Assembly (NCBI GenBank): GCA_903891095.1
Contig: CAITDI010000082.1
Span: 1 to 53,977 of the forward strand
Direction: 5' to 3'
DNA length: 53,977 nucleotides
Origin: an uncultured bacterium
GTDB lineage: Bacteria > Planctomycetota > Phycisphaerae > Phycisphaerales > SM1A02
Shown: in pieces, positions 19,036-37,534 of the stretch
Numbering within the stretch: the first letter of the stretch is position 1
How the letters are laid out: the number at the start of each line of letters is the position of its first letter
Translations under genes and position numbers: made by a program
The notes under the pieces: model-generated
The model's input: only the letters and a program-made list of their open reading frames with translations
Databases searched by the model: none
Told to the model about the DNA's origin: nothing

Positions 19036-21957
19036 TCAGCGCGCGGCGGACGCGAGCTTCTGCTTGGCTTGCGGCTTCGCGGCGGGCTGGGACTTCTTCG
19101 CGGCGGGCTTGGCGGCGACCTTGGTCGGAGCGGGCGCACCTGCGTCCTTCCAATCCTGGAGTTCGGCGTCCTTGTACGCGAGCTGGCCAGCCTCGGGCTT
19201 CTCAGTCGGCACGCCGAGATACTCGAGCACGTCGTTCACGATGTACGCGGCACACGGGCCGGCCATCGCGCCACCACCGTAGCTGTCGCCGAGATGCTTC
19301 TCGTCGGGCTGCTCGATCGTGACCAGCACGGCGATCTTCGGGTGATCGAACGGAGCGCCGATCACGAAGCTCGAGAGATGCTGATCCGCGGGATAGAAGC
19401 CACGAGGATGCTCCTTCGACGGCGGCTGCGCGAGCTGCGCGGTGCCGGACTTGCCGAACGCGCGGTACTTGAGCACGTCCATCAGCCGCTTGCCAGTGCC
19501 TTCCTTGATCACGAGCTCCATCACCTCGCGCGTCTCCTGGACGGCGTTTGCGCTCAGCACGGGAGTCGAGCCGCTCAGCGAATCGCTCGCGACCGGCTGC
19601 AGCGTGAGCGGCACCATGTCGCCGTTGCGGCAGAACGCGGTGAACGCGTGCACGAGCTGCAGCGGCGTGACCGAGATGCCCTGGCCGAACGACGTCGACA
19701 GCAGCGCCTTGGTCTTGTTGTCCCACTCGCGCGCCGGCGGCATGAGGCCAGTGGCCTCGCCGTCGAGCGCGGGATTGGCGAGCTGCCCAAATGCATGCGT
19801 CGAGTGGCCAAAGCCCCAGCGATCAAGGCAGTGGCGCATCTCGTCGCAACCCATGCGCATCGCGATCGTCGCCATGCCCGTGTTGACCGACTTCACGAGC
19901 ACCTGTTCCCAGGTCTTGGTTCCGAAGCTCGTCGCGTGTGCTTCCTTGATGGTGCGCTTGGCGCGGCCGTCGGTGAACGTCACAGGTCCCGCGGGCAGCG
20001 AGATCGTTTCGCTGCGTCGCGCGAAGCCGTGATCGATCGCCCAGCCCCACACGAACGGCTTGAAGATCGAGCCCGGCTCGAACGGATCGGTCGCCCAGCG
20101 CATGCGGCCGAGTGCCGCACGCTCTTCATCGGACAGCCCCTTCTGCTCCAGCGCGAAGTCGCTGGTGATCGGCGTACGTCCCGTCTTGGTGTTGAGCACG
20201 GAGTACGCGGCGAGGATCTCGCCCGTCTCGACGTCGACGACCACGCAGCGGCCGCCCTGGGCGTTCGCCGTCGCGGCCTTCGAGTCTGCGGCGCTGAACA
20301 CGGTGTGGTTCACGCGACGCTCGACCATCTCCTGGATCGAGATGTCGATCGAGAGCCGCACGGGCTTGCCCGCCTCGCCCGGCTTGTAGCCGTCAGGCGT
20401 GATCGAGATCACAGCGCCGTTCATCGCGGAGACGAACGTCGTGTAGCCGTCCGCAGAGTTGAGCGGACCGCCGCTCGGGTCGCCCGCGATGCGCTCGAAA
20501 CCGCTGAGGCCGATGACGCCTTCTTGCTTGGACGAGACGTTGGCGGCAACGACCGCCTTGAAGGACTGATCGCGATTTCCGTTGTCATTTGGATCCGGCG
20601 TGTTGGCAAGCGCCTGCGCGGCACGAACGCGCTGGATGTCACCGCGGACCATGTCGCTGAGCACAACGACCGACTTGGGCAGCCGCGCGAAGTCCGCGTC
20701 GGTGAACGAACCGTCGGTCGGAAGCGTGCGCAGCTCCATCGGCACCACCGCATGCAGCCTCGCGATGATGTCGTTGCGGAGCGGCGCAGCCTTCGCTTGC
20801 CAAGTGGCTTCGGCCGCGTCGTACTTCTCCATCGCAGCCTGCACCTTTGCCTCGGCCGCGGTGCGCTTCGCCTTGTTCTTGCTCGAGAGATCCTTGAACG
20901 CGGCAGTCAGTTCCTTGACGCTCGCGTCGGGCTTGTGCGGACGGCCTGGACGCATGATGTCCGTCAGGTCGATCGCGAACTCGACGATCGGATCGTCGAT
21001 GAATTCACGACTGAGGCCCACATTCGCCGCCGCCCTGCGAATGCCCTCCTCACCGCTGTAGGCGTTGTATTCCGCCGTGCTGCGGTACAGCTCCTGCACA
21101 TCCACCTCAAGATCCGCCAGCAGCGTGTCGCGGCCCGTGAGGCCGACGAGCGCCGCGCCGGTCACGCCGTACGGACGCTCACGCTCGCCCTTCGGCAGCA
21201 GATGCGCGCCGCGAAGGCTCGACGACGGACCGCCGGCTTCCTTCGCTTGCTTGAGGAGTCCGATCTGCTTGTCGTCCATGTCCTTCGCGAGCACGACCCA
21301 GCGCGGGAGCTGTGCGAGGTCCTCGGCGCTGAGCTCGCCGCTGTCGGGCAGACGACGCAGCTCCGGCGCGATGCGAGACGGACGAGGCTGGCCAGCCTCC
21401 TCGGCTGGGCGATAGATGATGTCGTCCGCGATCTCCGAAGCCGGCTTGCCGAGCACCGGCGAAAGCTCGTACGCCAGCGCCATGATCGGATTCGTGACCA
21501 TGTCCGGGATCTGCTTGCGCTCGGCGACCTTCTTGCCGTCGACGAGCTTCTGCTCGATCGAGTAGGTCCTGCCGTTCTCAACGACGACCTTGCCGTTGGC
21601 CATCAGCTTGGCAAGGCGCTCGTTGCGCAGCTCGGTGTCGCGGTACAGATCGCGCACATCGACATAGAGCAGTCCGCCGATGCTGTCGATCGCGAGCGTG
21701 CGGCCCGCGCGGTCGAGGATGAGGCCACGCGGGAGTGGATCGGAGACCTTGCGCTCCTGCATGAGCTGGCCGTCGTCGTGCTGCATCGAGGCGATGAGCT
21801 GCTCGTTGGGGCTCACCTTGAGGTGCACGACCTGAAAGACCGTCAGCGTGATGCCGACTGCGACACCCGAAACAAGAACGCACGCCCATCGTGAGATCGA
21901 CTGGGCGCGCGTTGCGGGCGATGCCGCGGAACTCGTGTTGTTGCTGCCGGTGTTCAT
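19036..21957 (-). CDS. ftsI: FtsI-type penicillin-binding protein, oversized with duplicated segment
   Basis: 973 residues; E. coli FtsI has 588. One membrane anchor lies at about 24-46. The class B transpeptidase domain has SxxK at S630 (GSIFKP), SxN at S690 (KSVNTG) and KSGT at K836, all intact. The pedestal region is expanded. A segment at about 196-240 (ELRRLP, AQLPRWVVLAKDM) is echoed at about 404-450 (ELRTLP, ARLPKSVVVLSDM), with a charged helical insert between. The C-terminus is Lys/Ala/Pro-rich. It is the last gene of the dcw-like run (rsmH, LysM, FtsL-like), and its ATG overlaps the FtsL-like stop, supporting a septal cell-wall cross-linking role. PBP2/MrdA is the alternative. Confidence 0.88.
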   Translation of the reverse strand: MNTGSNNTSSAASPATRAQSISRWACVLVSGVAVGITLTVFQVVHLKVSPNEQLIASMQHDDGQLMQERKVSDPLPRGLILDRAGRTLAIDSIGGLLYVDVRDLYRDTELRNERLAKLMANGKVVVENGRTYSIEQKLVDGKKVAERKQIPDMVTNPIMALAYELSPVLGKPASEIADDIIYRPAEEAGQPRPSRIAPELRRLPDSGELSAEDLAQLPRWVVLAKDMDDKQIGLLKQAKEAGGPSSSLRGAHLLPKGERERPYGVTGAALVGLTGRDTLLADLEVDVQELYRSTAEYNAYSGEEGIRRAAANVGLSREFIDDPIVEFAIDLTDIMRPGRPHKPDASVKELTAAFKDLSSKNKAKRTAAEAKVQAAMEKYDAAEATWQAKAAPLRNDIIARLHAVVPMELRTLPTDGSFTDADFARLPKSVVVLSDMVRGDIQRVRAAQALANTPDPNDNGNRDQSFKAVVAANVSSKQEGVIGLSGFERIAGDPSGGPLNSADGYTTFVSAMNGAVISITPDGYKPGEAGKPVRLSIDISIQEMVERRVNHTVFSAADSKAATANAQGGRCVVVDVETGEILAAYSVLNTKTGRTPITSDFALEQKGLSDEERAALGRMRWATDPFEPGSIFKPFVWGWAIDHGFARRSETISLPAGPVTFTDGRAKRTIKEAHATSFGTKTWEQVLVKSVNTGMATIAMRMGCDEMRHCLDRWGFGHSTHAFGQLANPALDGEATGLMPPAREWDNKTKALLSTSFGQGISVTPLQLVHAFTAFCRNGDMVPLTLQPVASDSLSGSTPVLSANAVQETREVMELVIKEGTGKRLMDVLKYRAFGKSGTAQLAQPPSKEHPRGFYPADQHLSSFVIGAPFDHPKIAVLVTIEQPDEKHLGDSYGGGAMAGPCAAYIVNDVLEYLGVPTEKPEAGQLAYKDAELQDWKDAGAPAPTKVAAKPAAKKSQPAAKPQAKQKLASAAR

Positions 21958-22298
21958 CCTGCACCCGCCTTCTTCTTTGGTCCTGTGCTGCGCTGCGCGA
22001 TCGTCCGCGGGTCTTCGACCGCCGACGGCGTCTTCATGTTCTCGGGGTCGTAGCGGTTGGGGATCGACTTGAAGTCAGCCCGTTCGTGCGACTTGGCCAG
22101 CTTCTTCTCGAGCTCGGAGACCGTCGTCGCCTTGGCGACGTCGACCTGCAGCCGCACGCGGCGCTGGTCGGCGTCCTGAAGCCGGAAGTGGATGCGGCTC
22201 ATCTCCGATGCCGCGTCGATGCGCTTCTGGCGGTTGACCAGCAGCGCTCCGTACATCGCACCGAGCACGATGATGACTGTTGCGAGCTTCGCGAACAT
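21954..22298 (-). CDS. FtsL-like small membrane division protein
   Basis: 114 residues. A membrane segment lies at about 4-21, followed by a predicted coiled coil (RIDAASEMSRIHFRLQDADQ on to about residue 72, with heptad-like spacing) and a basic, Pro-rich tail. Sequence similarity of FtsL is always weak. The call rests on size, the TM-plus-coiled-coil topology, and its position between rsmH and the transpeptidase gene. In FtsL families the protein helps FtsB and FtsQ recruit FtsI/FtsW. GGAGG lies 5 nt before the ATG, and the stop overlaps the next start (ATGA). Confidence 0.65.
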   Translation of the reverse strand: MFAKLATVIIVLGAMYGALLVNRQKRIDAASEMSRIHFRLQDADQRRVRLQVDVAKATTVSELEKKLAKSHERADFKSIPNRYDPENMKTPSAVEDPRTIAQRSTGPKKKAGAG

Positions 22299-22394
22299 CA
22301 GGCCTCCATGCCTCTTGTCGCCTCTCGTCCGTCGAGCGGACGCGTGATCACCTGCGCACTGTCGTAGTAGTCGGGTGTCGTCGATCGCGCTGCA

Positions 22395-23135
22395 TCAGCT
22401 GGCGAGCGGAACCTTGACCGTCGCGCCGAGCTTGAGGTTCGACGGGTTGAGTCCTGGATTCGCGTCGGTGATCTGCTTCGACTTGGAGCCGTTGCCGAGC
22501 TCGCGCGCCGCGATCTTCCACAGCGTGTCGCCCTTCTGCACGGTCACGTTGCGGAACTTGGGCGCGTCGACCGGCGCAGGCGTCTGCGGAAGAGCATTCG
22601 GCGCACCGTTGTTCTGAGCGCCAGCGACCGACTGCGGAGCCGCGCTCGGATCAAGCACGGTGATGTCGGGGATCTTGAACTTCTGACCGATCTTCATCTT
22701 CGAAGGATCGATGTTGTTGAACTTCGCGAGCGCCGTTCCAAGCGTGCGCTTGCCGTAGAACTGCTTGGCGATCGAGCCCGGGTTGTCACCCTGCGCGACG
22801 GTGTACGTGCGCTCGTTGGCGACAGGCGCGATGGGCGCCACGGGCGGCGGAGTCATGCCGCCACCGTTGCCCGTGAGGGCCGGCGACTCGGCGGTCAGCG
22901 GTGCGCCATCTGCAGTCGGGATCGAAGTCGGAGCCGCATCCGGCAGCTTGTTGCCGAAGAGCTTCGTCTCCTGCTGCTGCTCGAGACCAGGCAGCTTGGC
23001 CGCTTCGTACGTCACCCGCGTCATCGGATCCGCAAGCTGCGAATCGCGCGCAGAGAGGTGATCAGACAACAGAATGCCCACGAAGAGCAGAAGACCGAAA
23101 CCGATGACCATTGCCAGCTTGTTTTCGCGCGTCAT
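22395..23135 (-). CDS. Membrane-anchored protein with two LysM domains
   Basis: 246 residues. I start at the ATG at 23135, where AAGGAAG precedes it; the frame is open to 23255. A membrane anchor lies at about 7-24. A Pro/Thr-rich spacer follows, then LysM1 at about 108-155 (YTVAQGDNPGSIAKQFYGK) and LysM2 at about 194-245 (VTVQKGDTLWKIAARELGN). LysM binds peptidoglycan glycan strands. The gene sits between rsmH and the FtsL-like gene, where most dcw clusters have nothing extra, so a role in septal or peri-septal wall binding is likely but unproven. Confidence 0.88.
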   Translation of the reverse strand: MTRENKLAMVIGFGLLLFVGILLSDHLSARDSQLADPMTRVTYEAAKLPGLEQQQETKLFGNKLPDAAPTSIPTADGAPLTAESPALTGNGGGMTPPPVAPIAPVANERTYTVAQGDNPGSIAKQFYGKRTLGTALAKFNNIDPSKMKIGQKFKIPDITVLDPSAAPQSVAGAQNNGAPNALPQTPAPVDAPKFRNVTVQKGDTLWKIAARELGNGSKSKQITDANPGLNPSNLKLGATVKVPLAS

Positions 23136-23264: not shown

Positions 23265-24266
23265 TCAGGCAACGCGTGAAGGGCTGTCGACCATGACTGC
23301 CCTCAGCTTTGCCGACCTTGCCCGCGGGTTCTCCGCGGACTCGGCCTCCGAGCATACCAATGCGCCGGACGTGATCTCGTTGCAGAGACCATCCCGTCGC
23401 ATCGCGGCGAACGCTTGCTTGACAAGCCGATCCTCGAGGCTGTGAAACCCGATGATCGCGACCCGTGCTCCCGGTGCGAGCCAGCTCGGTCGGCCATCGT
23501 GGATGCGCTGCGCCGCTCTGTGAATCGAATCGAGGAGCGCATCGAGCGCTCCCATTTCATCGTTCACGGCGATGCGAAGCGCCTGGAAGGTCTTCGTCGC
23601 TGGATGCATCCGCGAGGTGTGAGCGCGGGAGCCGTAGGCGTCCCGAACCACATCCGCAAGTTGCGCCGTCGTCTCAATCGGCGCAACGGCGCGAACGGCA
23701 GCAATTTTCGCAGCGATCTTCCGAGCCAGCGGCTCCTCGCCAAAGCGGGCGATCAGCTCCGCGAGATCGCGCTCGCTCGACGACGCGATCAGGTCGCGCG
23801 CGGTCATGCCCGACGAGCAGTCGAGCCGCATGTCGAGCGGGCCTTCGCGCATGAAGCTCAGCCCGCGCGCGGGGTCGTCGACCTGGCTCGATGCGAACCC
23901 GAGGTCGGCAAGGACGAGGTTGGCGACGATGCCGCGGGCGTCGAGTTCACGGGCGACAGAGGCAAAGCTGCCGTGGACGGGCACAGGCTCGATGCCGGTC
24001 GCGGCGCGCACGCGGTCGCCCGAGTAGTCGAGGTTGCCGCGGTCGAGGTCGAACAGAACGACGCGTCCGGTCGGGCCGAGCTGCTGCGCGACAGCGGTCG
24101 CGTGACCACCCCTGCCTGCGGTCAGATCGACATATACATCGCCGCTTTGGGGCTTCAACACGCCGATGGTCTCTGCAAACAGGACCGGAACATGGCCAGA
24201 CGACATGCCCTGCGGCGCTTGCGCGCCCTGGCTGCCATCCAGTTTTGGTTGAGTTGACTCGTTCAC
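23265..24266 (-). CDS. rsmH: 16S rRNA (cytosine1402-N4)-methyltransferase RsmH (MraW)
   Basis: 333 residues, slightly longer than usual (about 313). The N-terminal motif GHVPVLFAETIGVL is typical. The SAM-binding loop reads VDLTAGRGGHA where most family members have DGT-GGGGH. Later motifs GFASSQVDDPARGLSF, MRLDCSSG, and the C-terminal HSLEDRLVKQ are intact. It methylates C1402 in the ribosomal P site. The GTG start overlaps the upstream stop by 4 bp, so it is translationally coupled to the WecA-like gene. No mraZ precedes it. Confidence 0.95.
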   Translation of the reverse strand: MNESTQPKLDGSQGAQAPQGMSSGHVPVLFAETIGVLKPQSGDVYVDLTAGRGGHATAVAQQLGPTGRVVLFDLDRGNLDYSGDRVRAATGIEPVPVHGSFASVARELDARGIVANLVLADLGFASSQVDDPARGLSFMREGPLDMRLDCSSGMTARDLIASSSERDLAELIARFGEEPLARKIAAKIAAVRAVAPIETTAQLADVVRDAYGSRAHTSRMHPATKTFQALRIAVNDEMGALDALLDSIHRAAQRIHDGRPSWLAPGARVAIIGFHSLEDRLVKQAFAAMRRDGLCNEITSGALVCSEAESAENPRARSAKLRAVMVDSPSRVA

Positions 24267-25618
24267 GGCTTGCTTGCGCCGATCGGCTCGCCAGTGACGG
24301 CCGCGGCGGCGGTCGCAGTGGGCGCGCTCGCGGTGGCCTCGGCGACTGGCGCGGGCTCCATCGACTGCAACTGCCAGCGGCTCCGCAGCGCGACCTTGAG
24401 CGCGACGGCTCCGATCGTTCCGAAGAGCACGATCGAGAACGCGTAGACCATGCGGAGGCGGACGATCTTCTCGATCGCCAGCGCGCCGAGCACCACGCCC
24501 AGGATGCCGAACGAGATCGAGATCGCGTAGAGGGCGAACACGGCGCGCTTGACCCCGCCGAGCGAACGCTTGGCGAGGTGGTGGATGTGGTTGGCGTCGG
24601 CCGTCGACATCGACACGCCCGCCAGCTTGCGCCGCAGGATCGCCAGCGACGTGTCCATGATCGGCAGCGAGAAGATGATCAGTCCGGCGAACACCAGGTG
24701 CGTGTCGCCCTGCTCACCGAGCATCAGGATCGACACGACCACGAGGTAGCCGATCAGCAGGCTGCCGCAGTCGCCCAAAAATATGACCGCCGGGTTGAAG
24801 TTCCACGGTAGGAACCCGAGCACGCTCCCGAGCAGCGCGAGGCAGAGCACGATGCGCACGCCGGCGAGCGATTCAAACGGGTCGGCGATCTGCGCGCCCG
24901 AGGCCATCAGCAGGCTGATCGCCAGGAGCCCCGTCGCCATGATCGCGGCCGTACCCGAGCAGAGCCCGTCGAGGCCGTCGATGAGGTTCATCGAGTTGCA
25001 GCCGCCGAGCACGAAGAGCGCGATGATCGCAGTACCTGTCCAGTAGAAGACGTCGCCCGAGTGGAGCGCCATCGGACCGACCGTCAGGAGCACGTCGGTC
25101 GCAGGACCGAGGAGCGGCGCAAGCGCGCCCTCCGCGACACGCGTGCCGATGTCCTGCACCGCGAGCGCCGCGGCGGCCACCAGCTGGCCAGCGATCTTGA
25201 GTCGCGGATCCCAACCCCAGACGTCGTCGGCGAGACCCGTGAACGTGATCGCGAGCACGCCGATGACGATCGAGACCGGCATCGGACCGAGCGCGCCGCC
25301 AGGGCCGTCGACGATCGTGTAGCTGTAGGCGATCGCAGCCATGAAGCCGAGGAACACCGCAAAGCCACCGAGATACGCGATCGGATACTTGTGCTGCTTT
25401 CGCGCCTCGTTGGGCTTGTCGATGATCTCCATGCTGATCGCAAGCTTGCGAACAAACGGAGTCGACAGCAGCGTCACGAGGAACGCAACGACGAACACGC
25501 CGGCATAGCCGTTGAGGAACTCCAGCGCGCCGAAGTTGACGGCGCTGATCGGCGGACCTGGCTCGACTGGCTTAAGCGCGTCGCCCAGCGCGGGGACCTG
25601 TGCGGCATCGATCAGCAT
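24263..25618 (-). CDS. WecA/TagO-family undecaprenyl-phosphate glycosyl-1-phosphate transferase
   Basis: 451 residues with about 10-11 hydrophobic segments. Conserved cytoplasmic motifs of the MraY/WecA superfamily are visible: IDKPNEARKQHKYPIAYLGG near 85-105, GLADDVWGWDP, NSMNLIDGLDGL, FLGDCGSLLIGY, and the C-terminal TADANHIHHL. The HIHH form is typical of WecA/TagO rather than MraY. It would load a sugar-1-phosphate onto undecaprenyl phosphate to start a surface polysaccharide. The N-terminal 30 residues are extra. GGAGGTG precedes the ATG. It overlaps the epimerase gene upstream and rsmH downstream. Because it occupies a dcw position, an MraY role cannot be fully excluded. Confidence 0.85.
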   Translation of the reverse strand: MLIDAAQVPALGDALKPVEPGPPISAVNFGALEFLNGYAGVFVVAFLVTLLSTPFVRKLAISMEIIDKPNEARKQHKYPIAYLGGFAVFLGFMAAIAYSYTIVDGPGGALGPMPVSIVIGVLAITFTGLADDVWGWDPRLKIAGQLVAAAALAVQDIGTRVAEGALAPLLGPATDVLLTVGPMALHSGDVFYWTGTAIIALFVLGGCNSMNLIDGLDGLCSGTAAIMATGLLAISLLMASGAQIADPFESLAGVRIVLCLALLGSVLGFLPWNFNPAVIFLGDCGSLLIGYLVVVSILMLGEQGDTHLVFAGLIIFSLPIMDTSLAILRRKLAGVSMSTADANHIHHLAKRSLGGVKRAVFALYAISISFGILGVVLGALAIEKIVRLRMVYAFSIVLFGTIGAVALKVALRSRWQLQSMEPAPVAEATASAPTATAAAAVTGEPIGASKP

Positions 25619-26664
25619 CGAGCACCTCCGACCCCGACTTCGCGGGACTGCAGTTCAGCGGCGAGATCTCTGATCGTCTGCGCGAGCGCGATGCGGGGTG
25701 CAAAGCCGACTGCAGCGCGGATGCGCGTGAGATCGGGCTGGCGTACGGCGAGGTCGTCGAAACCCGCCGCGAACGCCTGCGCGTAGGGAACCATGCGGAC
25801 GCCGCTCTTCGACCCCAGCGTCGAGATCACCAGCGCGGCAAGGTCCTTGATCGTGATCTGCTCGTCGCGGCCGACATTGAACACGCGGCCGTGGCACGAC
25901 GTGTCCTCAAGCATGCGTGGCAGTGCGGGAACCACGTCGCGCACGTCGCAGAAGCAGCGCGACTGCCGGCCGTCGCCGTGGACCTCGAGAGCGTCGCCGT
26001 TGAGCGCCGCCTGCACAAACCGTGGAAGCACCATGCCGTACTCGCCGACCTGGCGCGGCCCGACGGTGTTGAAGAACCGCGCGATCACCACCGGCAGCCC
26101 ATGCTCGCGGTGATACGCAAGCGCGAGATACTCGTCGACCGCCTTCGAGCTGGCGTAGCACCAGCGCGTGACGCTGGTCGAGCCGTAGACGACGTCGTCG
26201 TCCTCGTTCATCGGGACGCGCAGACCCTTGCCGTAGACCTCGCTGGTCGACGCGATGAAGGTCGGCAGCGAACGCTCCGCGGCAAACCGCAGCACGACGC
26301 TCGTCTCGTGGATGTTGGTCTCGATGGTGTGGATCGGCCGCTCGACCACCAGGCGCACGCCGACGGCGGCCGCGAGGTGGTAGATGCAGTCGAAGTCGCG
26401 CGGCGAGAGCGTGGGAAGCACGTCCGACACATCGCCTTCGATCACCTTGTAGCGATCGCGCCGCGATGCGACCGAGCGCACGATCTCCGGGTTCGCGCGC
26501 CGGCCCGTCGAGAAGTTGTCGATCACGGTGACGTGGTCGCCGCGGTCGAGCAACAGCTCCGACAGATGCGAGCCAATGAAGCCCGCACCGCCCGTGACCA
26601 GCGTCCGAAGCGGGCGCCGATCCGTCGATCCTGTCAGTGTGGAACTGTTCGGATTGCTCTGCAA
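25612..26664 (-). CDS. NAD-dependent nucleotide-sugar epimerase/dehydratase
   Basis: 350 residues of the extended short-chain dehydrogenase type. The Rossmann motif TGGAGFIG lies at about 24-31, a catalytic Ser in ASTSEVYG, and the YxxxK pair in WCYASSKAVDEYLA. RFFNTVGPRQ and FNVGRDE are typical of UDP-glucuronate decarboxylase and UDP-glucose 4-epimerase groups. The precise reaction cannot be chosen by eye. The start shown is TTG; the true start may differ by a few codons, since there is no ATG before the Rossmann motif. It overlaps the WecA-like gene by 7 bp, so both probably supply and load the sugar for the polysaccharide made by this locus. Confidence 0.88.
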   Translation of the reverse strand: MQSNPNSSTLTGSTDRRPLRTLVTGGAGFIGSHLSELLLDRGDHVTVIDNFSTGRRANPEIVRSVASRRDRYKVIEGDVSDVLPTLSPRDFDCIYHLAAAVGVRLVVERPIHTIETNIHETSVVLRFAAERSLPTFIASTSEVYGKGLRVPMNEDDDVVYGSTSVTRWCYASSKAVDEYLALAYHREHGLPVVIARFFNTVGPRQVGEYGMVLPRFVQAALNGDALEVHGDGRQSRCFCDVRDVVPALPRMLEDTSCHGRVFNVGRDEQITIKDLAALVISTLGSKSGVRMVPYAQAFAAGFDDLAVRQPDLTRIRAAVGFAPRIALAQTIRDLAAELQSREVGVGGARC

Positions 26665-26690
26665 GTCTTCGGGTCCGCCGCCAGGGGCGA

Positions 26691-28955: not shown

Positions 28956-31900
28956 TTACTTGAGGGACGACAGCAGTTGCTCGATGGAAGTCTTTGTCGC
29001 GTCATCAGGTTGCATGCCCAAGGCGCGGTTGGCCGTCTCGCGCGCCTGGGGTAGGCGGTCGAGGAGCTTGAACGCCTGCGCGCGGTGCAGCTGGATTGCC
29101 GCGCTGTCGCCGAGCTTGGCGGCGCGATCCGCCGCTTCGAGCGCCGCAGCCCCCTGCCCATCGGCAAGAAGTGCGTACGCCAGGGTGTCGAGGTATTCGC
29201 CGCGGGTCGGCTGGAGCTGAACGGCCATACGGGCGGCCGGCAGCGCCTTCTTGGCGTCCTTGAGGCAGTCGACGCAGAGGTAGGCAAAGTTGTTGAGGAC
29301 CGCGTCGTTCCGCGGCGTCAGGGCAACGGCCTTCTCGAACGCGGGCACAGCCTTCTCGCACTGCTTGAGCAGGTAGTAGGTGGTGCCGAGGCGGTCGAGC
29401 ACCATCGCGCCGAAGCCGGGGTTCTTGGAGTAGTCGGCCGCTTCGATCGGCGTAAGGAGCGCAAGCACCTTCTGCAGGCCGTCGGGGCCCTGGCCCAGGG
29501 CCAACGAGGAGAGGAATTCGCGCGCGGCGGGAGACATATCCGCACCTTCGACGTCGGCGACGAGCTTCTCAGCGTCGGACATCATGGTCGGCGGGAAGAC
29601 GAGGCGAACCGCGCCGTACCAGGCCTCCGCCATGTTGGGATCACCAGCGTCGAGCGCCTTCTTGACGTCGCGGAACGATTCCTTGAGCGATGCGACGCCG
29701 TCGCCGCGCTCGCCCTTGCCCAGGAGCGCGACGCCAAGGTAGGCGCGCGCCACGGGATTCGAGGTCATGAGGTCCGCACGAACGCGGCAAGCATCGATCG
29801 CGCCGTTGAAGTCCTTGTCGTGGATGAGCGCATCGACCTGGCGGAAGAACGTCGTGGCATCGGGACGCAGCTTGTCCGCGCGGGCAAAGCTCACCGCGGC
29901 ATCCTTGTAACGGCCACGGCGCGCCATGAGGTCCGCGAGCGTGTAGTGCCAGCTCGGCTCGCCCGGCGAGTAGCCGATCGCTGCGCGGAGGGTCTCTTCG
30001 GCGCGGTCGAGGTTCTGGTTGTTGTAGAGCAGCTCGACGAGCCTGCGGCGCGCCTCGACGCTGGTAGGAAGCAGACGCAGGTAGCGCTCGTACTCCGCCG
30101 CCGCGCCGGCTCCGTCGCCGAGGGCAAGGAGCACTTCAGCGCGGTTCTGGCACGCAGGGAAGAACGTCGCGCCAAGGGCCGCACCGCGGTCCGCGGCAGC
30201 GAGCGCCTCTTCACCGCTGGCGCGGTCGCCCGTCAGCTCGAAGACCTTTCGCTTGGCCATCGAGTCCTGGATGAACGGCTGCGGCATCGAGGGTCCGAGC
30301 TTCTTTGCACGCCCGTATGCAGCGATCGCAGCGTCGTACGCGGCCTTCGCGCCTGCGATGTCCCCGCTGGCGCGGAGCGCATCGCCCCGCGCGGCCTGGA
30401 TCGCGCCATCGAGCAGCTCCGTGCCCATTTCGCGAGTACCGGTGCCCGCACCGGCATCGAAGCTCTTGCGTGCATCGTCCAGGCGGTTGGCGCGCAGGTA
30501 GCACTCGGCCAGCGTGAGCTTGAGCGTCGGGTTGTCGTCGACCTTGGCCAGCGGCTCGAGATACTCGATCGCCATGTCGTAGCGCTCGATGCTCATCGAC
30601 GTGTCGATGATCGCGCGCGTCGCGGGGCGAGTCTTGGGATCCTCGCGGCGAACGGCCTCGGCGAACGACTGGCGCGCGCGGTCCTTGCCGCCCGTCACGT
30701 TCTGGAACTGACCGAGCATCACCATGCCGCGCCAGCCCGCATCAGGTCCGGCCTTGTCGACCGCGGCCTTGAGAACGGCCTCGGCCTCGGCAACCTGGCC
30801 AAGCGCACGGAGCATTCCCGCGTAGGAGTTCGCAGAGTCAATGTTGGCCGGATCGCGGCTGAGGATCTGGGTGTAGATGTCCTGGGCACGCTTGCGCCAG
30901 TCGCCGCGCACTCGGTCAAGCTCGCGCGTGCGCGATGCAATGTCCATGGCGGACCACTGGGTCTCGTTGAACAGCGGACGCGCGTTGTCGCCCACGATGT
31001 CCTCGCGCTCCGGCGCGGTCATCGCGAGGATGCCAGCGAGCGTCTGGGCGTTCTCGATGTTGGTGGGAGCGACGCGGTACTGGTTCTCGCGCATGCGCAT
31101 CGCCATGCGGCGATCGCCGACCTGCTGCTCGAGCGCGAGCCAGGTGTTGCCGACTTCTTCGTCGAAGCCCGCGAGCTGGCGCGCCTCACGGAGCACCTCG
31201 AGCGCGCGCTGGGTGTTGCCCGCGCGGATGCTCGCGCCGACGAGAAGACGCACGGTCTGCATGTCGCCGGGGCGGCGCTTGTACGCCTCCTCGTAGTTGC
31301 GCATCGCGATCTCCACGTTGCCCGAGCGCTCGTTGGCTGCGCCAAGTGCGCGATAGATCGTCGAAGCATCGACACCGGACTGGATCGCACGCTCGAGCAC
31401 CTGCGTGGCCTCGGCGACCTTGCCCTGCGCGAGCAGGATGCGCGAATGGCAGCTCGGACCGAGCGTGCGGTCGCGGCTGGATTCATCCGCGAGCTTCGCG
31501 AGGGTCTCGGCCGCGGCGTAGTCCTTCTTCTCGAGCGCAAGGGTGAAGTCCGACTCGATCAGCGCCGGATGCGTCGGATCGAGCTGCTGCGCCTTCGCGC
31601 GCCACTGAGCCGCGGCAGCCGCGAGCTTGTCTGCGTTCATGGCGGTCGTCGCCGCGCTCGCGACGCCAAGGCGGCGCTCGCGCTCGGCCTGCTGCCGAAC
31701 GGTCTGTCCCGTCTGCTCCAGACGGAGGTAGGTGAGGACCGCGAGTTCCTTCGGGTCGGTCACGGAACCTTCGGAGAGCGCGATGATGCGCTCCGCCGGA
31801 TCGTCGCTGGCAAGCACCGCGTTGTAGCGGATGAGCGCCGCGTCCGTGGGGAACTTGACCAAGGCGTCCTTGGTCATCTTGAGCGCGACCTGAGGTTGGT

Positions 31901-33686
31901 CGGCCTGGACCTCGAGCGCGATCGCGATGCGCTCGAGACGGACGTCCGGAGCGGTCAGCTTCTGTCGGAACTCGCTGAGCAGGGCGCGCGCGCGATCAAA
32001 CTCCTTGGTCTCAAGGAACGCCTGCACGCGTCCTGCAAGCTCGATGAACGGATCGCCCGCGCTGATGTTCGTCGGGTCCGCTTCCTGGGCGTTGATCGCG
32101 GCGGCGAGCAGCTGCTTCGCCTCTTCGTCGTCCGGCGTCATGTCGACGACGCCACGCAACGTGGCGATGGCTTCACGCGAGCGCGCCGTCGCGAGGTCGA
32201 GGCGCGCACGGAGCTTGAGCAGCACGGGATTGCCGGGCGAAAGCGTGAGGCCGGTGTTGACCAGGTTGCGGGCCTGACCGACTTCGCCAACGCGGAGGTT
32301 GGCGAGCGCGGTGAGCACGTACAGCTCGAGGTCGATCTGGCTGCCCTTCTTGAACACCTCGTTGAACTTGACCAAGGCGCCGGTCATGTCGCCGTTCAGG
32401 ATCGCCAGCTTGGCGTCGGCGCGAATGATGGTCGAGTTGTCAGTGGCGCCGGCGAGCATCTTCTCGAGCACATCGCGTGCCGCGACGGCTTCCTTGATGT
32501 GCGCCGCCTTCTCGGCGTCGCCGCCGCGCTCCGCCTGGTCGAACGCGATGTCGAACAGCGCCTGCGCGGCGGAGATCCTGTTGCCTTCGTAGCTCGCGGC
32601 GAGCAGGCCCGTGGTCGGGCGCGGCGCCTTCAGCACGAAGTCGAGTTCGCGGCGCGCCGTCTTCGGATCGACCAAACGCATCGCAAGGCCGAGTGCGCGG
32701 CGGTGCAGCAGTTCATCGGGGTGCTTCTCGACATAGGTGGAGAGCAGCGACTGGGCTTCCTCGACGCCCGCGTTGCCGGCGCGCGCGAGCGAGGCTGCGC
32801 ACTCGAGGACGTCGAGGCCCTGCGCGGACGCGGCGGCGACCTTCGCAAGAGCTTCGGTTGCCGCGACCACGGAAGGATCGCTGACGTTGCCCTTCGACAC
32901 GACGATCGCGCGCTCCAGCTTGGCGATGGTGGTGCACAGTCCGTTGGGAGTCTCGGTTTCCGCGCGCTCGAAGGCCTTCTTCATCGCCTCGTTGGCAGAG
33001 TCGATCTTGTCGGCGCGGCCCGCGCCACCGGCGACGGCGGCGTCGCGCACGGTCATGCGCGCCAGCGAACCGACGGCGAGGTCGCGCTCCGCGGGAGTGA
33101 GTTCCTTCGACTGCAGCGCTGCCTCGAGATCCTTGACCATCGCGACGCGCTCGGAGTCGTTGAGACCATCGATGCGGCGGAATCCGCTGTATCCGAGATA
33201 GAGCTTGCCGAGCGCCTGGCCCACGCCCTGCTCGGGAACGATCTTGAGCATGTCTTCGCAGCGCTCGCCGAGCCCCTTCCACATCGCCTGCGCGTTGATC
33301 GCCTCAGCCTGTGCACGGAAGGTCTCGAGATACGTGCGCCAACGGGCCATGTCGTCGCGCGCGGAACGCGCTTCGTTCGCCAGCACCTGCAGGTACTGGC
33401 CGTAGCGCTCGCGGGCCTCGTTGTCGGTCTCGGGCGTGAGCGCGAGGATCGCGGTCTTGAACTTCTCGAGGTAGGCGAGGTTCGTCGGCTTCTTCGCAAC
33501 CGCGCGGCCATAGGCGTCGGCCGCCTTGCGGTAGTCGCCCGCGGAGACGTACTCGTCGCCCGCGCGCACATGGCGGTCCGCGTCATAGCGGTAGCGCAGC
33601 ACGAGCGTCCCTGCTCCACCGATGACGAGGAGGATCAGGAGGGAACCGACGACGAAGACGAGCTTCTTGTTGAGCTTCTGTGCCAT
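28956..33686 (-). CDS. Giant TPR-repeat protein of the exosortase locus
   Basis: 1576 residues. A membrane anchor or uncleaved signal lies at about 9-29 (FVVGSLLILLVIGGAGTLVL). The rest is almost entirely helical TPR-like repeats. Clear ones include RAGDEYVSAGDYRKAADAYG near the start and LDRLGTTYYLLKQCEKAVPA, ALTPRNDAVLNNFAYLCVD and YLDTLAYALLADGQGAAALE near the end. PEP-CTERM/exosortase loci often encode a TPR protein (PrsT, roughly 900 residues); this one is far longer. It probably scaffolds the envelope-spanning polysaccharide machinery in the periplasm, by analogy. No Shine-Dalgarno is obvious before the ATG. A long plus-strand open frame runs through the gene but looks like a codon-bias artefact. 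Confidence 0.88.
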   Translation of the reverse strand: MAQKLNKKLVFVVGSLLILLVIGGAGTLVLRYRYDADRHVRAGDEYVSAGDYRKAADAYGRAVAKKPTNLAYLEKFKTAILALTPETDNEARERYGQYLQVLANEARSARDDMARWRTYLETFRAQAEAINAQAMWKGLGERCEDMLKIVPEQGVGQALGKLYLGYSGFRRIDGLNDSERVAMVKDLEAALQSKELTPAERDLAVGSLARMTVRDAAVAGGAGRADKIDSANEAMKKAFERAETETPNGLCTTIAKLERAIVVSKGNVSDPSVVAATEALAKVAAASAQGLDVLECAASLARAGNAGVEEAQSLLSTYVEKHPDELLHRRALGLAMRLVDPKTARRELDFVLKAPRPTTGLLAASYEGNRISAAQALFDIAFDQAERGGDAEKAAHIKEAVAARDVLEKMLAGATDNSTIIRADAKLAILNGDMTGALVKFNEVFKKGSQIDLELYVLTALANLRVGEVGQARNLVNTGLTLSPGNPVLLKLRARLDLATARSREAIATLRGVVDMTPDDEEAKQLLAAAINAQEADPTNISAGDPFIELAGRVQAFLETKEFDRARALLSEFRQKLTAPDVRLERIAIALEVQADQPQVALKMTKDALVKFPTDAALIRYNAVLASDDPAERIIALSEGSVTDPKELAVLTYLRLEQTGQTVRQQAERERRLGVASAATTAMNADKLAAAAAQWRAKAQQLDPTHPALIESDFTLALEKKDYAAAETLAKLADESSRDRTLGPSCHSRILLAQGKVAEATQVLERAIQSGVDASTIYRALGAANERSGNVEIAMRNYEEAYKRRPGDMQTVRLLVGASIRAGNTQRALEVLREARQLAGFDEEVGNTWLALEQQVGDRRMAMRMRENQYRVAPTNIENAQTLAGILAMTAPEREDIVGDNARPLFNETQWSAMDIASRTRELDRVRGDWRKRAQDIYTQILSRDPANIDSANSYAGMLRALGQVAEAEAVLKAAVDKAGPDAGWRGMVMLGQFQNVTGGKDRARQSFAEAVRREDPKTRPATRAIIDTSMSIERYDMAIEYLEPLAKVDDNPTLKLTLAECYLRANRLDDARKSFDAGAGTGTREMGTELLDGAIQAARGDALRASGDIAGAKAAYDAAIAAYGRAKKLGPSMPQPFIQDSMAKRKVFELTGDRASGEEALAAADRGAALGATFFPACQNRAEVLLALGDGAGAAAEYERYLRLLPTSVEARRRLVELLYNNQNLDRAEETLRAAIGYSPGEPSWHYTLADLMARRGRYKDAAVSFARADKLRPDATTFFRQVDALIHDKDFNGAIDACRVRADLMTSNPVARAYLGVALLGKGERGDGVASLKESFRDVKKALDAGDPNMAEAWYGAVRLVFPPTMMSDAEKLVADVEGADMSPAAREFLSSLALGQGPDGLQKVLALLTPIEAADYSKNPGFGAMVLDRLGTTYYLLKQCEKAVPAFEKAVALTPRNDAVLNNFAYLCVDCLKDAKKALPAARMAVQLQPTRGEYLDTLAYALLADGQGAAALEAADRAAKLGDSAAIQLHRAQAFKLLDRLPQARETANRALGMQPDDATKTSIEQLLSSLK

Positions 33687-33759
33687 ATGAAAATCGACTT
33701 TCAGCCGGCGAACCGGCCTGGGCGAGTGTTCTCTGAATCACGGGCGGCAGCCAAGGGAA

Positions 33760-34638
33760 TCATTCGGCATGACCCTCGATTGGCGGCTGCTCTCCTGCAT
33801 TCTTCTCCAACGACTTCCGTTCCCACGTGGGCCAATCGGGAAGGCATCGCATGACCTGGGGGATCAGGCCGCTGAGCAGTTCGGCGGCGTCCTTCTTGAA
33901 CGGCTCCATCAGCGAGTCGTCGGCGTTCTTGACGACGCCCATCTTGGTGAGCTGGATCTTGCAGTAGTAGGCGTAGCGGTCGGCGAGGCTGAACGCGAGC
34001 GAGCGCACGCCGTAGCTCGAGCTCGTGGCCTTGCCGTTGGCGACGAAGAAGTAGCCGCCGACCTGGCGGATCTCGGGTCGCTTGGGATCCTGGAACTCGA
34101 TCGTCGTCGCGACGATGTCGCCGACGGGCATCGTCACCTGCTCGATGTCGGCGGTGACGAGGTCCTTGACGGGCGCGATCATGTACGGGCTCGCATCCGA
34201 CTGCGGATCGCGCTTGCGCCACGTGCTCTGATCGACGTCGAGCTTGACGCCTTCGGAGTTGCGCGTGAGTTCGAGCCCGCCGACCGCCCAGCAACGCTCG
34301 GGGATGTGCGGAATCGCGTCGATCGTGCCCGTGTAGTAGGCCACGTGGACGTGGATCACGCCCTTCTCGGGATTGCCTTCGATGGCGTAGGTCCGGTCGA
34401 GGTACCGACGCGTGCCGAGTTCCTCGATCAGCGTGTCGCTGAACACGCTGTCGGTTCCGATGCGCTCCCAGCGACCGAGCTTGGTCGGCACCGAGTCGAG
34501 CGGACGGCGGAGTTCGACCGGCTCCTTGAGCAGGAAGATGTTCAGCTGCGAGACGAGCACGCGGAATCCGACCGCGCCCGCGACGAGGATCGCGAGCGTG
34601 ACGAAGTACGCCTTGACGGACGAGCGCTCAAGCAGCAT
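33760..34638 (-). CDS. EpsI-family (DUF3485) exosortase-associated protein
   Basis: 292 residues. One N-terminal membrane segment lies at about 10-30, followed by a soluble domain. The motif HIPERCWAVGGLEL corresponds to the family signature around the conserved Cys of EpsI/DUF3485 proteins, and VHVAYYTGT precedes it. EpsI is usually fused to or encoded next to the exosortase EpsH. Its role in polysaccharide or protein sorting is not established. The start overlaps the end of the exosortase gene by 11 bp, showing tight coupling. The C-terminus is hydrophilic. Confidence 0.85.
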   Translation of the reverse strand: MLLERSSVKAYFVTLAILVAGAVGFRVLVSQLNIFLLKEPVELRRPLDSVPTKLGRWERIGTDSVFSDTLIEELGTRRYLDRTYAIEGNPEKGVIHVHVAYYTGTIDAIPHIPERCWAVGGLELTRNSEGVKLDVDQSTWRKRDPQSDASPYMIAPVKDLVTADIEQVTMPVGDIVATTIEFQDPKRPEIRQVGGYFFVANGKATSSSYGVRSLAFSLADRYAYYCKIQLTKMGVVKNADDSLMEPFKKDAAELLSGLIPQVMRCLPDWPTWERKSLEKNAGEQPPIEGHAE

Positions 34639-35605
34639 GTTCGCCGCCCTTCTTCGGCTCCGTGTCGGCGGCAGGCGCTTCGACGAAGAGGTTCCGCAGG
34701 AACCACATGATGCCGAGGTAGAGCAGCAGCGCCGGCACGAGCCAGACGAGACCGATGAAGCTGTGGAAGTCGCCCGTCGCGAAGTTCGCGTTCAGGAGCG
34801 ACAGCACGCCGAGCGTGAACACGCGGAGCACGTTGACTCCGATCGCAACGGGCACGCCCGCGGCGACAAGCGCGATGCGCTGCCAGGTGCGCGGCAGGCC
34901 CGTGTACGCGATCGCCACGCCAAGCGCGAGGAACGCGACCAGCATGCGCATGCCCGAGCAGGCCTCTGCGACGTTGAGCTGGTTCGGAACGCCGTTCGAG
35001 TAGACCGTGAGCACATTGCCGCTGCGCTCGACATCGGTGCCTGTGATCGAAAGCATGCCCCACGCGCCGATCGCCGACCAGTCCTGCATGCGCTGCGTGA
35101 TGAGCTGCAGCAGCCGGTCGCTGACCGTCTGGCCAAACACGATCCAGTACATGAGCGGGAAGAGCAGGATGCGCGTGGCGCGCCAGCCGAGCACGAGCAG
35201 CAGCGTGCCGAAGATCGTCACGCCGACCGAGATGCCGCGCGCGTTGTGGTGAAGGACGAACCACGCCGGGCCGAACGTCGTGGCGACATAGGCCGCGACG
35301 CCGAGCAGCACGATCGGAATGCCCATCCAGTTGGCGCGCATCGGCTGCGCGAGCAGCTCCGCGCGGCGGAGGTAGACGAAGTAGCCGCAGATGAACGGCA
35401 CGAGGAGCGTGTGCCCCCAGTCGGCCGGCTCGGAGAGCGCCCAGCGCACCTGCGTCTCGAAGAAGACCCAGAACACGGCGATGAACGCCGCGAGCAGCAC
35501 CGCACCGCCGATGGCCAGCTGTGCGCCACTCAACGACACCGCGGGCGCAGACGCAAGTGCGCCGCCCGTGCGGTTGTGAGGCTGTGCTCCGTTGATGGCG
35601 CTCAT
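34628..35605 (-). CDS. Exosortase (EpsH/Xrt family) transpeptidase-like membrane enzyme
   Basis: 325 residues with about eight membrane segments. The exosortase catalytic triad is visible: Cys216 in EACSGMRML, Arg261 in NVLRVFTL, and His281 in DFHSFIG. Exosortases recognise C-terminal PEP-CTERM-like tripartite signals and process the exported protein. The upstream open frame to 35803 is Arg/Gly-rich and not protein-like, so I start at the ATG at 35605. No protein in this window ends in a recognisable PEP-CTERM-like signal, so the substrates must be elsewhere. The neighbours (EpsI, TPR, Wzc-like, Wza-like) form a typical exosortase/EPS locus. Confidence 0.92.
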   Translation of the reverse strand: MSAINGAQPHNRTGGALASAPAVSLSGAQLAIGGAVLLAAFIAVFWVFFETQVRWALSEPADWGHTLLVPFICGYFVYLRRAELLAQPMRANWMGIPIVLLGVAAYVATTFGPAWFVLHHNARGISVGVTIFGTLLLVLGWRATRILLFPLMYWIVFGQTVSDRLLQLITQRMQDWSAIGAWGMLSITGTDVERSGNVLTVYSNGVPNQLNVAEACSGMRMLVAFLALGVAIAYTGLPRTWQRIALVAAGVPVAIGVNVLRVFTLGVLSLLNANFATGDFHSFIGLVWLVPALLLYLGIMWFLRNLFVEAPAADTEPKKGGEHAA

Positions 35606-35740
35606 GCAGACGAACTCAAACCGGCATGGCGTGATCGGCGCCATGCCCAACAATCGGTCTCTTCCCAGCCCTGCTTGCCCCGCGCCATCCGCGCCCCGCC
35701 GCCAATGGCCAAGCCGGGCGGAGGGAGGAGCCCTACGCCT

Positions 35741-35754
35741 TGCCTTCCAAGGCA
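35741..35754. other. Inverted repeat in the gap between wza-like and exosortase genes
   Basis: TGCCTT-CC-AAGGCA, with 6-bp arms and a 2-bp centre, lies within the 285-bp gap 35606-35890 that separates two genes of an otherwise tight operon. It could be an operator. I see no terminator with a T-tract and no recognisable riboswitch in the gap. Confidence 0.3.
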
Positions 35755-35890
35755 GTTCGCGATTCCACGAGGTTTGTCGACCATGCTGGGATTCCACTCG
35801 CAAGTCCCGCTCTGACGGGGACCTTCACTCGCACTCGCCACTCTGGTCCACGCGATTCGCCGAGAGCGATCGCGCAACCATCGCCGACGT

Positions 35891-37534
35891 TCAGTTCGTC
35901 GGGATGTACTCCGGCGCTGGCCCAAAGACGTCATTTCCGAAGTTGCGGTCGAGCAGGAAGCCGAAGCCGTACGTCATGCGGAAGCCGTTGCGGATAACCG
36001 CGAGCGGCGTCGCGTAGAAGTTGGTTCCGATGATCACGTGGTCGTCGGCCTGCATGTAGATGTCGGGCTCGGCGCGATTGCGGATCGCGGCGAGGTCGAC
36101 GCGGATCGTCGCTTCGCGGTCCTTGCCGACGACGCGCACGAGGTCGACGCGGTTCGGGATCGCCGTCGGCGACAAGCCGCCTGCTGCCGAGACGAAGCGG
36201 CTGAGCGTGAGGCGGCCGTTGCTGTTCTCGAGGTTGTAGACGCCGATGCGGTTGATCTCGCCGTCGATGTAGAGCAGGCCCGTATCCGGCGGCTCGACGT
36301 AGACGCGATCACCAGGACGGATCACGACGTCGAGATTCGGATCGCCCTTGATGAGCGCCTGGAAGTCGACCTCGATGATGCGCGTTGCGTACACGGACGA
36401 TGGCACCGGAAGCGCTGGGCGTCCCGGACGCGCGGCGCCGGGAGCAGGAGGAGTTCCACGCTGCCAGCGGCCGAGGTTCTCGTCGAAGTAGTAGTCGCTC
36501 GCCGGCTTCGCTTCGGTCGTCGCCGTGGCGGCGACAGGCTTTGCGTCCTGCGCGTGCGCCACGTCACCGATCATTCCGGGCGACGACTTGGGAGCATCGG
36601 CGGGCTTGGGCTCTGCTGCCCTCGTCTCTGCTGCCTTCGCGTCGGCGGGCTTGGTCTCTGCGGGGTTGGACGCAGGCGCCTTCGTGTCGTTGCCGAGCTG
36701 GTTGATGAGCTGGTCGATGTCGCTACCGGAGTTGCCGGCCTCGGGCTTGGTCGGCACGGTCGTCGTCGGCGCAGTCTGCGCGCCGCCGGTCGCGTCCTGT
36801 CCAGTCGCCTGGCGCTTTGGGTAGACGGGGCGCAGCGAGTCGTCGAGCGGCGCGGCGCGAATCACCTTCACGCGCTGCGTCGTCGGAAGCGTTCCACCCG
36901 CAAGCGCGATCGCTTCGGACAGACGGAAATCAGGACGCTCGAGCGTGTACACGCCGGTCTGATTCACAGCGCCGGTGATCGCGAACTGAAAGCCCTGTCC
37001 CTTGAGCAGCGAAACCTGCACGACGGGATTCGCGATGAGGCGACCCACCTTCGCGCTGACCTCCATCTGGAACTCCTCGATGGTGAGTCCTGCTGCAGCG
37101 ACGTCGCCGATTTCCTTGATGCGCGCGTTGCCGGTCTGATCGACCGCGAGTTCCTCGCGCTCGGCCTGTCCAGGCGTCACGAGTTCGAAGATCTCCACGC
37201 GAAGCACGTCGCCCGGCGAAAGGCGGTACTTGAGCTCGCTCGGAACGAGATCCTCCGTTGCGGGCGGGACGATCGTCTGTCCCTTCGGCCCTTGACGCTC
37301 GATCACGTCGAGGCGCGAGAGAATCGGCATCGTCGTGGGCGTGGTCTCGAAGTAGCCCGTGCGGCTGGGATCCATCCATGAATCCACCTCGCAACCGACG
37401 AGCGTCGAAAGCAGCGACGCCGCGACGAGCGCATTGCCCAGCGACGACACGAAACGTCGCGGTGCGCAACTCGATGGAGTGGCTCCAGAGGCGAGGGAAT
37501 TCTTGAGTTGAGGAGCTTGCTGAGTGGGATGCAC
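35891..37534 (-). CDS. Wza-like polysaccharide export lipoprotein (Poly_export/SLBB)
   Basis: 547 residues from the GTG at 37534, chosen because GGAG lies 8 nt upstream; the frame is open to a GTG at 37579. A lipoprotein signal ends in STLVGC (Cys48). The Poly_export domain begins YRLSPGDVLRVEIFELV. A first SLBB domain includes VNQTGVYTLERP. A low-complexity Ala/Pro/Lys linker with AAETRAAEPKPADAP follows. Further SLBB domains include GDRVYVEPPDTG and INRIGVYNLENS. Wza-type proteins form the outer-membrane channel for exopolysaccharide. It is the first EPS gene after pyrB and is separated from the exosortase gene by 285 bp. Confidence 0.9.
   Translation of the reverse strand: MHPTQQAPQLKNSLASGATPSSCAPRRFVSSLGNALVAASLLSTLVGCEVDSWMDPSRTGYFETTPTTMPILSRLDVIERQGPKGQTIVPPATEDLVPSELKYRLSPGDVLRVEIFELVTPGQAEREELAVDQTGNARIKEIGDVAAAGLTIEEFQMEVSAKVGRLIANPVVQVSLLKGQGFQFAITGAVNQTGVYTLERPDFRLSEAIALAGGTLPTTQRVKVIRAAPLDDSLRPVYPKRQATGQDATGGAQTAPTTTVPTKPEAGNSGSDIDQLINQLGNDTKAPASNPAETKPADAKAAETRAAEPKPADAPKSSPGMIGDVAHAQDAKPVAATATTEAKPASDYYFDENLGRWQRGTPPAPGAARPGRPALPVPSSVYATRIIEVDFQALIKGDPNLDVVIRPGDRVYVEPPDTGLLYIDGEINRIGVYNLENSNGRLTLSRFVSAAGGLSPTAIPNRVDLVRVVGKDREATIRVDLAAIRNRAEPDIYMQADDHVIIGTNFYATPLAVIRNGFRMTYGFGFLLDRNFGNDVFGPAPEYIPTN

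Follow-up and report, generated by a model that had tools for sequence, protein, structure and literature searches.

The window analysed here is the whole 53,977-nt stretch of contig CAITDI010000082.1 (assembly GCA_903891095.1), from an uncultured planctomycete of the Phycisphaerales (SM1A02). Its minus strand carries an exosortase/exopolysaccharide operon that runs directly into a block of division and cell-wall genes, rsmH-LysM-ftsL-ftsI. Observed in the window and its relatives were the gene content and gene order, two orientations of the block, a stop/start overlap of wecA and rsmH that is kept across genera, and a terminator-like hairpin past ftsI. The best explanation, to which we give a probability of about 0.7, is that two separable conserved units were joined into one long operon in one lineage. 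The fusion looks like a lineage-specific expression arrangement, and a tie between division and surface polymer, which the original prediction had proposed, is unproven.

An exosortase operon continues into rsmH and ftsI

The open reading frame (ORF) list and profile matches placed eleven colinear genes, Wza-like to FtsI, on the minus strand from position 37579 down to 19036. The original prediction of a colinear run was correct in the genes it named, but the run contains eleven genes rather than ten and extends 5' past the noted limit through argF and a hypothetical gene to holA, on the same strand with gaps of 50-76 nt. The gene order recurs in 15 fetched genomes of the window's genus, as far as their stretches extend, indicating that it is not due to chance. 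The features are listed below, with start sites inferred from the sequence.

40609-41625, minus strand: holA-like gene (DNA polymerase III delta; PF06144), colinear with and upstream of the run as first noted
38679-40532, minus strand: hypothetical protein in the holA/argF interval, without a Pfam match; similar sequence at the same position in several relatives
37651-38628, minus strand: argF, ornithine/aspartate carbamoyltransferase (PF02729, PF00185), 71 nt ahead of the Wza-like gene
35891-37579, minus strand: Wza-like outer-membrane exporter (Poly_export and SLBB profile matches)
34628-35803, minus strand: exosortase, EpsH family (PF09721, E 2.9e-44; TIGR02602)
33760-34638, minus strand: EpsI (DUF3485; PF11984, 37.9 bits, cut-off 26.1)
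28956-33686, minus strand: PrsT-like TPR protein of 1576 aa (TPR families; TIGR02917 PrsT, 165 bits, below the cut-off of 312)
26691-28916, minus strand: Wzc/EpsG-like chain-length/ATPase protein, Walker A motif without lysine (GLPEAGTTS)
25612-26664, minus strand: SDR nucleotide-sugar epimerase/dehydratase (PF16363, PF01370)
24263-25618, minus strand: WecA/MraY-superfamily sugar-phosphate transferase (PF00953, E 9.1e-30)
24263-24266, minus strand: WecA stop/RsmH start, GTGA, a 4-nt overlap read in the sequence
23265-24266, minus strand: rsmH (mraW; TIGR00006, 246 bits, above cut-off), one match in its own genome
22395-23255, minus strand: membrane protein with two LysM domains (PF01476, two stretches)
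21954-22298, minus strand: FtsL-like short membrane protein, without a Pfam match (NF053549 FtsL_Actino, E 0.0064, below cut-off)
19036-21957, minus strand: FtsI/SpoVD-like class B penicillin-binding protein (PBP) of 973 aa (PF00905, PF03717; SIFK, SVN and KSG motifs in the translation)
18982-19011, minus strand: 13-pair hairpin between convergent ftsI and sucB (fold z -4.6), a likely and perhaps bidirectional terminator
17677-18948, plus strand: sucB-like 2-oxoacid dehydrogenase acyltransferase, convergent to ftsI; second anchor of the inverted block in relatives
14659-17631, plus strand: sucA-like 2-oxoglutarate dehydrogenase E1

A strong promoter and terminator between the SDR gene and rsmH had been named as evidence against a continuous run, and neither was seen. 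None of the nine terminator-like sites listed (11.0 in shuffled sequences, hence no excess) lies from the SDR start to the rsmH end, and a search for sigma-70-like promoters returned 0 against 1.2 in shuffles, with a model that is uninformative for this phylum.

The block occurs in three arrangements

Stretches around rsmH were fetched from 40 relatives and 60 further genomes of the family (hand-picked, 1-4 per genus), together with exosortase stretches. rsmH was matched in 41/41 genomes searched as relatives and in 142/151 genomes of the family. The layout set comprised 91 family genomes in 44 genera, the window included, plus 16 genomes of other families in the order; genus codes (g38 and the like) and genome codes (G044 and the like) are labels of the dataset. 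The family genomes fell into state A (37 genomes, 11 genera), state B (16 genomes, 6 genera) and state C (38 genomes, 27 genera).

State A is the order found in the window, (holA-)argF-Wza-Xrt-EpsI-TPR-Wzc-[SDR]-WecA-RsmH-LysM-FtsL-FtsI followed by convergent SucB-SucA, where Xrt is the exosortase. WecA stands directly ahead of RsmH in 36 of the 37 genomes, across 11 genera, and argF precedes Wza in all 22 A stretches that reach that far. The fetched stretch includes convergent SucB in 20 of these 37 genomes. Eight of the other 17 reach at least 1.2 kb past ftsI without SucB, and three of these eight (G015, G046 and G048) have SucB 3-4.5 kb beyond ftsI, suggesting that extra DNA entered there. 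SDR was not detected in the g6, g29 and g54 stretches, and FtsL was often undetected in relatives at such distance.

State B has argF, the exopolysaccharide genes and WecA on one side and priA-SucA-SucB on the other, with the four-gene block inverted, as far as the stretches reach; consequently, SucB precedes RsmH and FtsI faces WecA. argF was found before Wza in 11/16 B genomes and priA in 11/11 B stretches checked, and holA precedes argF in states A and B alike where the stretches reach. By a strict script, FtsI and WecA are opposed on one stretch in 14/16 genomes, and SucB and RsmH have the same direction in 14/16. WecA was undetected in G044, where an SDR gene faces FtsI; in G122 the two parts lie ~2.7 kb apart on one contig; and SucB is absent from the stretches of G113 and G118. 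An invertible switch of the phase-variation kind was considered and rejected, as the two 300-nt breakpoint regions, compared in the window only, share no exact inverted match of at least 9 nt.

In state C, exosortase operons fetched from 19 genomes (18 genera) have the same gene order as far as detected. The operon was on a contig other than that of rsmH in 17 of them and more than 600 kb away on one contig in two (G024 and G063). These operon stretches end at or near WecA, and the region past WecA is outside the data. SucB comes immediately before RsmH, or no more than ~3.3 kb before it, in 29 of the 37 C genomes with an rsmH stretch; eight C rows extend less than 1 kb past the detected ftsI end, where a facing operon could be missed. 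In one C genome (G050, genus g31; locus L234) the rsmH-ftsI block is convergent to sucB and no exosortase operon was seen upstream, suggesting that the block was inverted elsewhere too. Fetched stretches from other families of the order hold RsmH and FtsI, often with LysM, together without either neighbour.

Among 80 named rsmH loci, ten were in state A and four in state B; all fourteen were close in identity or labelled Phycisphaera/Phycisphaerales, and at least some of them are the same contigs as the family genomes. At the other 66, Wza, Xrt, EpsI and Wzc all went unmatched within flanks of at most 10 kb, often shorter. Public records of close matches are labelled Planctomycetota, Planctomycetaceae and Phycisphaerales, and two records of close relatives (L075 and L080) carry the names Candidatus Kuenenia and Limnohabitans, evidently in error.

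These arrangements do not support the proposal that surface polymer or PEP-CTERM-type sorting is tied to division: the block is inverted behind sucB in 16 genomes of six sister genera, and the operon lies away from rsmH in 19/19 C genomes of 18 genera. The original prediction was to fall if the two gene sets were always separate in related genomes; they are not always separate, but they often are.

The overlap of wecA and rsmH is kept across genera

The predicted overlaps among the SDR, WecA-like and rsmH genes are present in the window, 7 nt for SDR/WecA (25612-25618) and 4 nt for WecA/RsmH. FtsL and FtsI overlap by 4 nt (21954-21957), and Xrt and EpsI by 11 nt in their longest ORFs. An overlap alone says little because overlaps are common, affecting about 15% of the co-directional pairs of most prokaryote groups according to the available text of PMC6728339; its conservation is the finding.

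At the WecA-RsmH junction a start at -4, which gives the 4-nt overlap, is available in 29/36 state A genomes, and the core reading frame is kept in 31/36; the junction counts cover the fetched stretches. Such a start is rare at most other junctions: argF-Wza 0/23, Wza-Xrt 0/28, EpsI-TPR 2/27, TPR-Wzc 3/34, Wzc-SDR 1/29, Wzc-WecA 1/7 (mostly with no SDR between), RsmH-LysM 6/93, LysM-FtsL 1/46, SucA-SucB 4/36 and SucB-RsmH 3/25. Xrt-EpsI has it in 6/28, though one frame is kept at other spacing in 21/28. Two junctions are equally tight, SDR-WecA (21/30, frame 29/30) and FtsL-FtsI (22/25), so that three junctions of the run are kept 4-nt overlaps, two of which the original prediction had singled out. 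The WecA-RsmH overlap is thus kept far more than at most neighbouring junctions, in a set of genera that resembles a clade.

Counted by genus, the WecA-RsmH frame is kept in 9/11, against one third expected if it were free. Outside the window's genus, the -4 start is the last in-frame start ahead of the aligned core in 11 of the 15 genomes that have it, a tally that took only starts ahead of that core. The overlap persists in genera whose RsmH is down to ~51-55% identical to that of the window. The WecA end reads NTGA (N not C) in 33/37 A, 8/14 B and 0/1 C genomes, and the Wzc end does so in 15/36 A genomes; the A-B difference gives a Fisher p of 0.018 when genomes are treated as independent, which they are not. 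Conservation of this kind is what translational coupling predicts and supports the coupling suggested by the original prediction, although the coupling itself is predicted from sequence. In PMC6728339, as far as its text was available, 13 of the 14 E. coli and Haloferax pairs tested with overlaps of the ATGA/TGATG type showed strict coupling.

The block might instead have its own promoter inside wecA, the overlap being ordinary compaction that leaves expression unaffected and the joined order being history only. The share of ~15% overlapping co-directional pairs in most prokaryote groups (PMC6728339) fits this, as does the occurrence of RsmH and FtsI, often with LysM, without either neighbour in other families of the order. 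However, frame and -4 start are kept here and not at most other junctions of the same genomes, and the -4 start is the last one before the aligned core in those 11 of 15 genomes outside the window's genus. We consider this explanation unlikely.

Another possibility is functional coupling, in which the transferase that initiates the polysaccharide and the septal wall enzyme would be deliberately expressed at matching levels, the motive being a common undecaprenyl-phosphate pool or a new surface layer needed at the septum. WecA-like and peptidoglycan enzymes do draw on one undecaprenyl-phosphate pool. Persistence of the overlap down to ~51-55% RsmH identity and the higher frequency of NTGA at the end of wecA in state A compared with state B would both suit such matching. 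So would the enrichment of complex subunits among close E. coli gene pairs, 30.4% of pairs at -8 to +10 nt against 6.8% of pairs more than 20 nt apart in the available text of PMC10666635. Yet the sister genera have the same operon with the block behind sucB, g7 has a -4 start with sucB in 2/2 genomes, the coupled product is RsmH and not FtsI, and argF, without a known link, holds its place before Wza just as constantly (22/22 A genomes). Had the sister genera been missing, the overlap would by itself have suggested a functional link, and the comparison does not bear this out; in our view deliberate matching is improbable.

A probable joining of two units in one lineage

The explanation that we favour takes as its first unit the exosortase/exopolysaccharide operon, Wza-Xrt-EpsI-TPR-Wzc-[SDR]-WecA, which keeps nearly the same gene order in every family genome from which it was fetched, and as its second a putative remnant of a division/cell-wall block, rsmH-LysM-ftsL-ftsI. 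Both units probably lay between argF and sucBA in the ancestor of the 17 genera, and an inversion of the block alone would separate states A and B. In state A, rsmH would most likely be translated by ribosomes terminating on wecA (termination-reinitiation), and transcripts covering the block would originate in the polysaccharide operon, or further up at holA-argF, and stop at the hairpin past ftsI. In state B the block stands behind sucB instead. This alternative place suggests that the block uses any upstream operon, and its expression may come from the housekeeping operon that happens to precede it. State A would then result in shared expression and probably not in a shared biochemical pathway. 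Division-wall genes thus have two alternative, long-kept neighbours one clean inversion apart, with a kept stop/start overlap on one side, and states A and B offer a natural comparison of the same genes behind different upstream operons.

Judging from the gene orders, at least one inversion of the block has occurred. B before A would be the simpler order, since C and B share SucB-RsmH, and we put this forward as a guess. State A falls in two places in a four-gene tree and in a tree of the polysaccharide genes only. The A genomes group together in FastTree analyses of all ten genes (support 0.936) and of the block only (0.286). In a quick IQ-TREE run (LG+G4) with ten genes from 47 genomes, A lies on one side of a branch with an SH-aLRT of 92, and C on one with 100. 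Two independent gains of state A were suggested by the four-gene tree but did not appear in the ten-gene FastTree, the IQ-TREE or the block-only tree.

Several observations weigh against the joined-operon explanation. The trees were built from the neighbourhood genes themselves. State B as a group has an SH-aLRT of 20 in the 47-genome ten-gene IQ-TREE, which is weak, and a topology that groups g40 with g38, g28 and g1 is retained (p-AU 0.42); the block may have been inverted more than once and in either direction, and the p-AU value leaves room for the two gains. One g38 genome has 4.3 kb between WecA and RsmH. The overlap is absent from both g51 genomes, from the one g38 genome in which the two genes are adjacent, and from L040 and L044, two of the 16 genomes of the window's genus. 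RsmH has an alternative in-frame ATG at codon 21, 56 nt past the WecA stop and just ahead of the conserved domain. An overlap kept over many genera could itself reflect functional coupling, and what is said above of one transcript and of reinitiation is read from the DNA sequence.

The exosortase and its candidate sorting signals

The exosortase scores 151.8 bits with PF09721 (cut-off 25.7) and 122.9 bits with TIGR02602 (cut-off 105.55), which places it in the family. Its true start is probably downstream of the longest-ORF start. Candidates for the Cys, Arg and His residues were picked by eye in the translation (ACSGMR, NVLRVF and FHS). Named exosortase types stayed under their cut-offs, the best being XrtW (138.6 of 425 bits) and XrtA (117.8 of 208 bits). 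Exosortase matches occur in 143/151 genomes of the family, indicating a core trait with no particular attachment to state A. Two such matches are in the own genome; the second locus (L243, G000:C61:105000-124900), close to a glycosyltransferase gene, encodes an EpsI, a Wzc-like protein and a TPR protein of 1904 aa of its own. In some B and C genomes, frames of ~590-650 aa around the exosortase match suggest an exosortase-EpsI fusion that is split elsewhere.

The usual PEP-CTERM signal has the form VPEP. A search for PEP-CTERM-like signals, proposed with the original prediction, yielded a large set. PF07589 gave 33 matches in the own genome at E <= 10, eight of them above cut-off; at the loose limit 13 of 14 control genomes also had matches, and none had one above cut-off. 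Most of 30 loci read (L153-L182) have, at the protein end, a tail of VPAPGA or a close variant, a hydrophobic stretch and RRRR. A profile built from 24 of these tails matched 38 places in the own genome, the 24 included, and 5-53 in each of 17 genomes, no unrelated control genome being among them. The genome thus has what defines a PEP-CTERM system, many proteins with a motif, a membrane helix and a basic C-terminus. The VPAPGA...RRRR tails score close to the cut-offs of the PEP-CTERM and MYXO-CTERM models, falling on either side of them, and are perhaps an unnamed variant signal.

Ten of the 11 A genomes in the tail search have a single exosortase match, that of this operon, together with 8-53 signal matches, suggesting that this exosortase is the likely processing enzyme in those genomes. 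The exosortase probably serves PEP-CTERM-like proteins with VPAPGA...RRRR tails, and the VPAPGA-type set can be paired with it where only one exosortase was found. A division protein may be among the signal-bearing proteins.

Encoded proteins and neighbouring genes

The exosortase, RsmH and the transpeptidase domain are firmly assigned to their families. The FtsL-like protein was named from its place, size and shape plus a weak match, and its family support is weak. None of the 25 NCBIfam matches listed for the SDR protein attains its own cut-off. The WecA-like protein is under cut-off with both TIGR02380 (94.9 of 326 bits) and MraY TIGR00445 (66.6 of 192 bits), and we place it in the WecA/MraY superfamily only. 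The best NCBIfam match of the FtsI-like protein is spoVD (170 bits, below cut-off). A second class B PBP, beside murE, murF and mraY on contig C129, matches best with PBP2/MrdA (281 bits, below cut-off), which makes the window's PBP the better FtsI candidate. The Walker A lysine of the Wzc-like protein is found in 0/66 aligned family rows, the window included; this protein may be an inactive kinase or have a divergent site.

A gene with FHA and histidine-kinase ATPase domains (41669-43234) is divergent from holA. Positions 7412-12069 carry a planctomycete cytochrome gene (PSCyt1/DUF1549/DUF1553) and, after it, a DUF1501 gene. This PSCyt1/DUF1501 pair is flanked by a carA-like gene (within 6131-8080) and a priA-like gene (12260-14560), and these two flanking genes adjoin each other in relatives.

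Comparison with known systems

A division and cell-wall (dcw) cluster carries rsmH, ftsL and ftsI and then murE-murF-mraY...ftsZ in one cluster. Like it, the window has rsmH, FtsL-like and FtsI genes in the usual order. It differs in the inserted LysM protein and in being the head of such a cluster only, with murE, murF, mraY and the PBP2-like gene on contig C129 and FtsZ not found. FtsZ had no match in 41/41 genomes (40 relatives and the own genome) and was found in 13/14 controls, suggesting that division here is of the FtsZ-less kind. This accords with the literature on Planctomycetota, where, in the available text of PMC5147048 and PMC10632474, division without FtsZ is an open question and binary fission is the mode reported for Phycisphaerae. 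The part of PMC10632474 available reports that none of ftsI, ftsW and mraW is essential in Planctopirus limnophila.

A bolder proposal, still less probable than those weighed above, is that in these FtsZ-less Phycisphaerales the operon ahead of rsmH-ftsI determines how much septal peptidoglycan synthase is supplied. If this were true, lineages with the block behind wecA would meter division-wall synthesis by surface-polysaccharide/exosortase expression, and sister lineages one 5-kb inversion apart would meter it by expression of 2-oxoglutarate dehydrogenase (central carbon). The two gene orders would then represent opposite wirings of growth control found in nature, replacing control centred on FtsZ.

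No description of an exosortase operon joined to rsmH-ftsI was found in the open-licence literature, a weak absence as most subscription journals are outside it. The parts are known, and we regard the combination as a new arrangement of them. The 4-nt stop/start overlap is like that of overlapping pairs with termination-reinitiation in the available text of PMC6728339 and PMC10666635, but WecA and RsmH, read here from sequence, are not known to act together. As in the PEP-CTERM/EpsH loci in the available text of PMC1569441, the exosortase lies by EpsI, a TPR protein of the PrsT kind and Wza- and Wzc-like genes, and the proteins with C-terminal signals are dispersed elsewhere in the genome. In contrast to those loci, the signals here are of the VPAPGA form, a WecA-like initiator stands at the end, and the operon continues into rsmH-ftsI.

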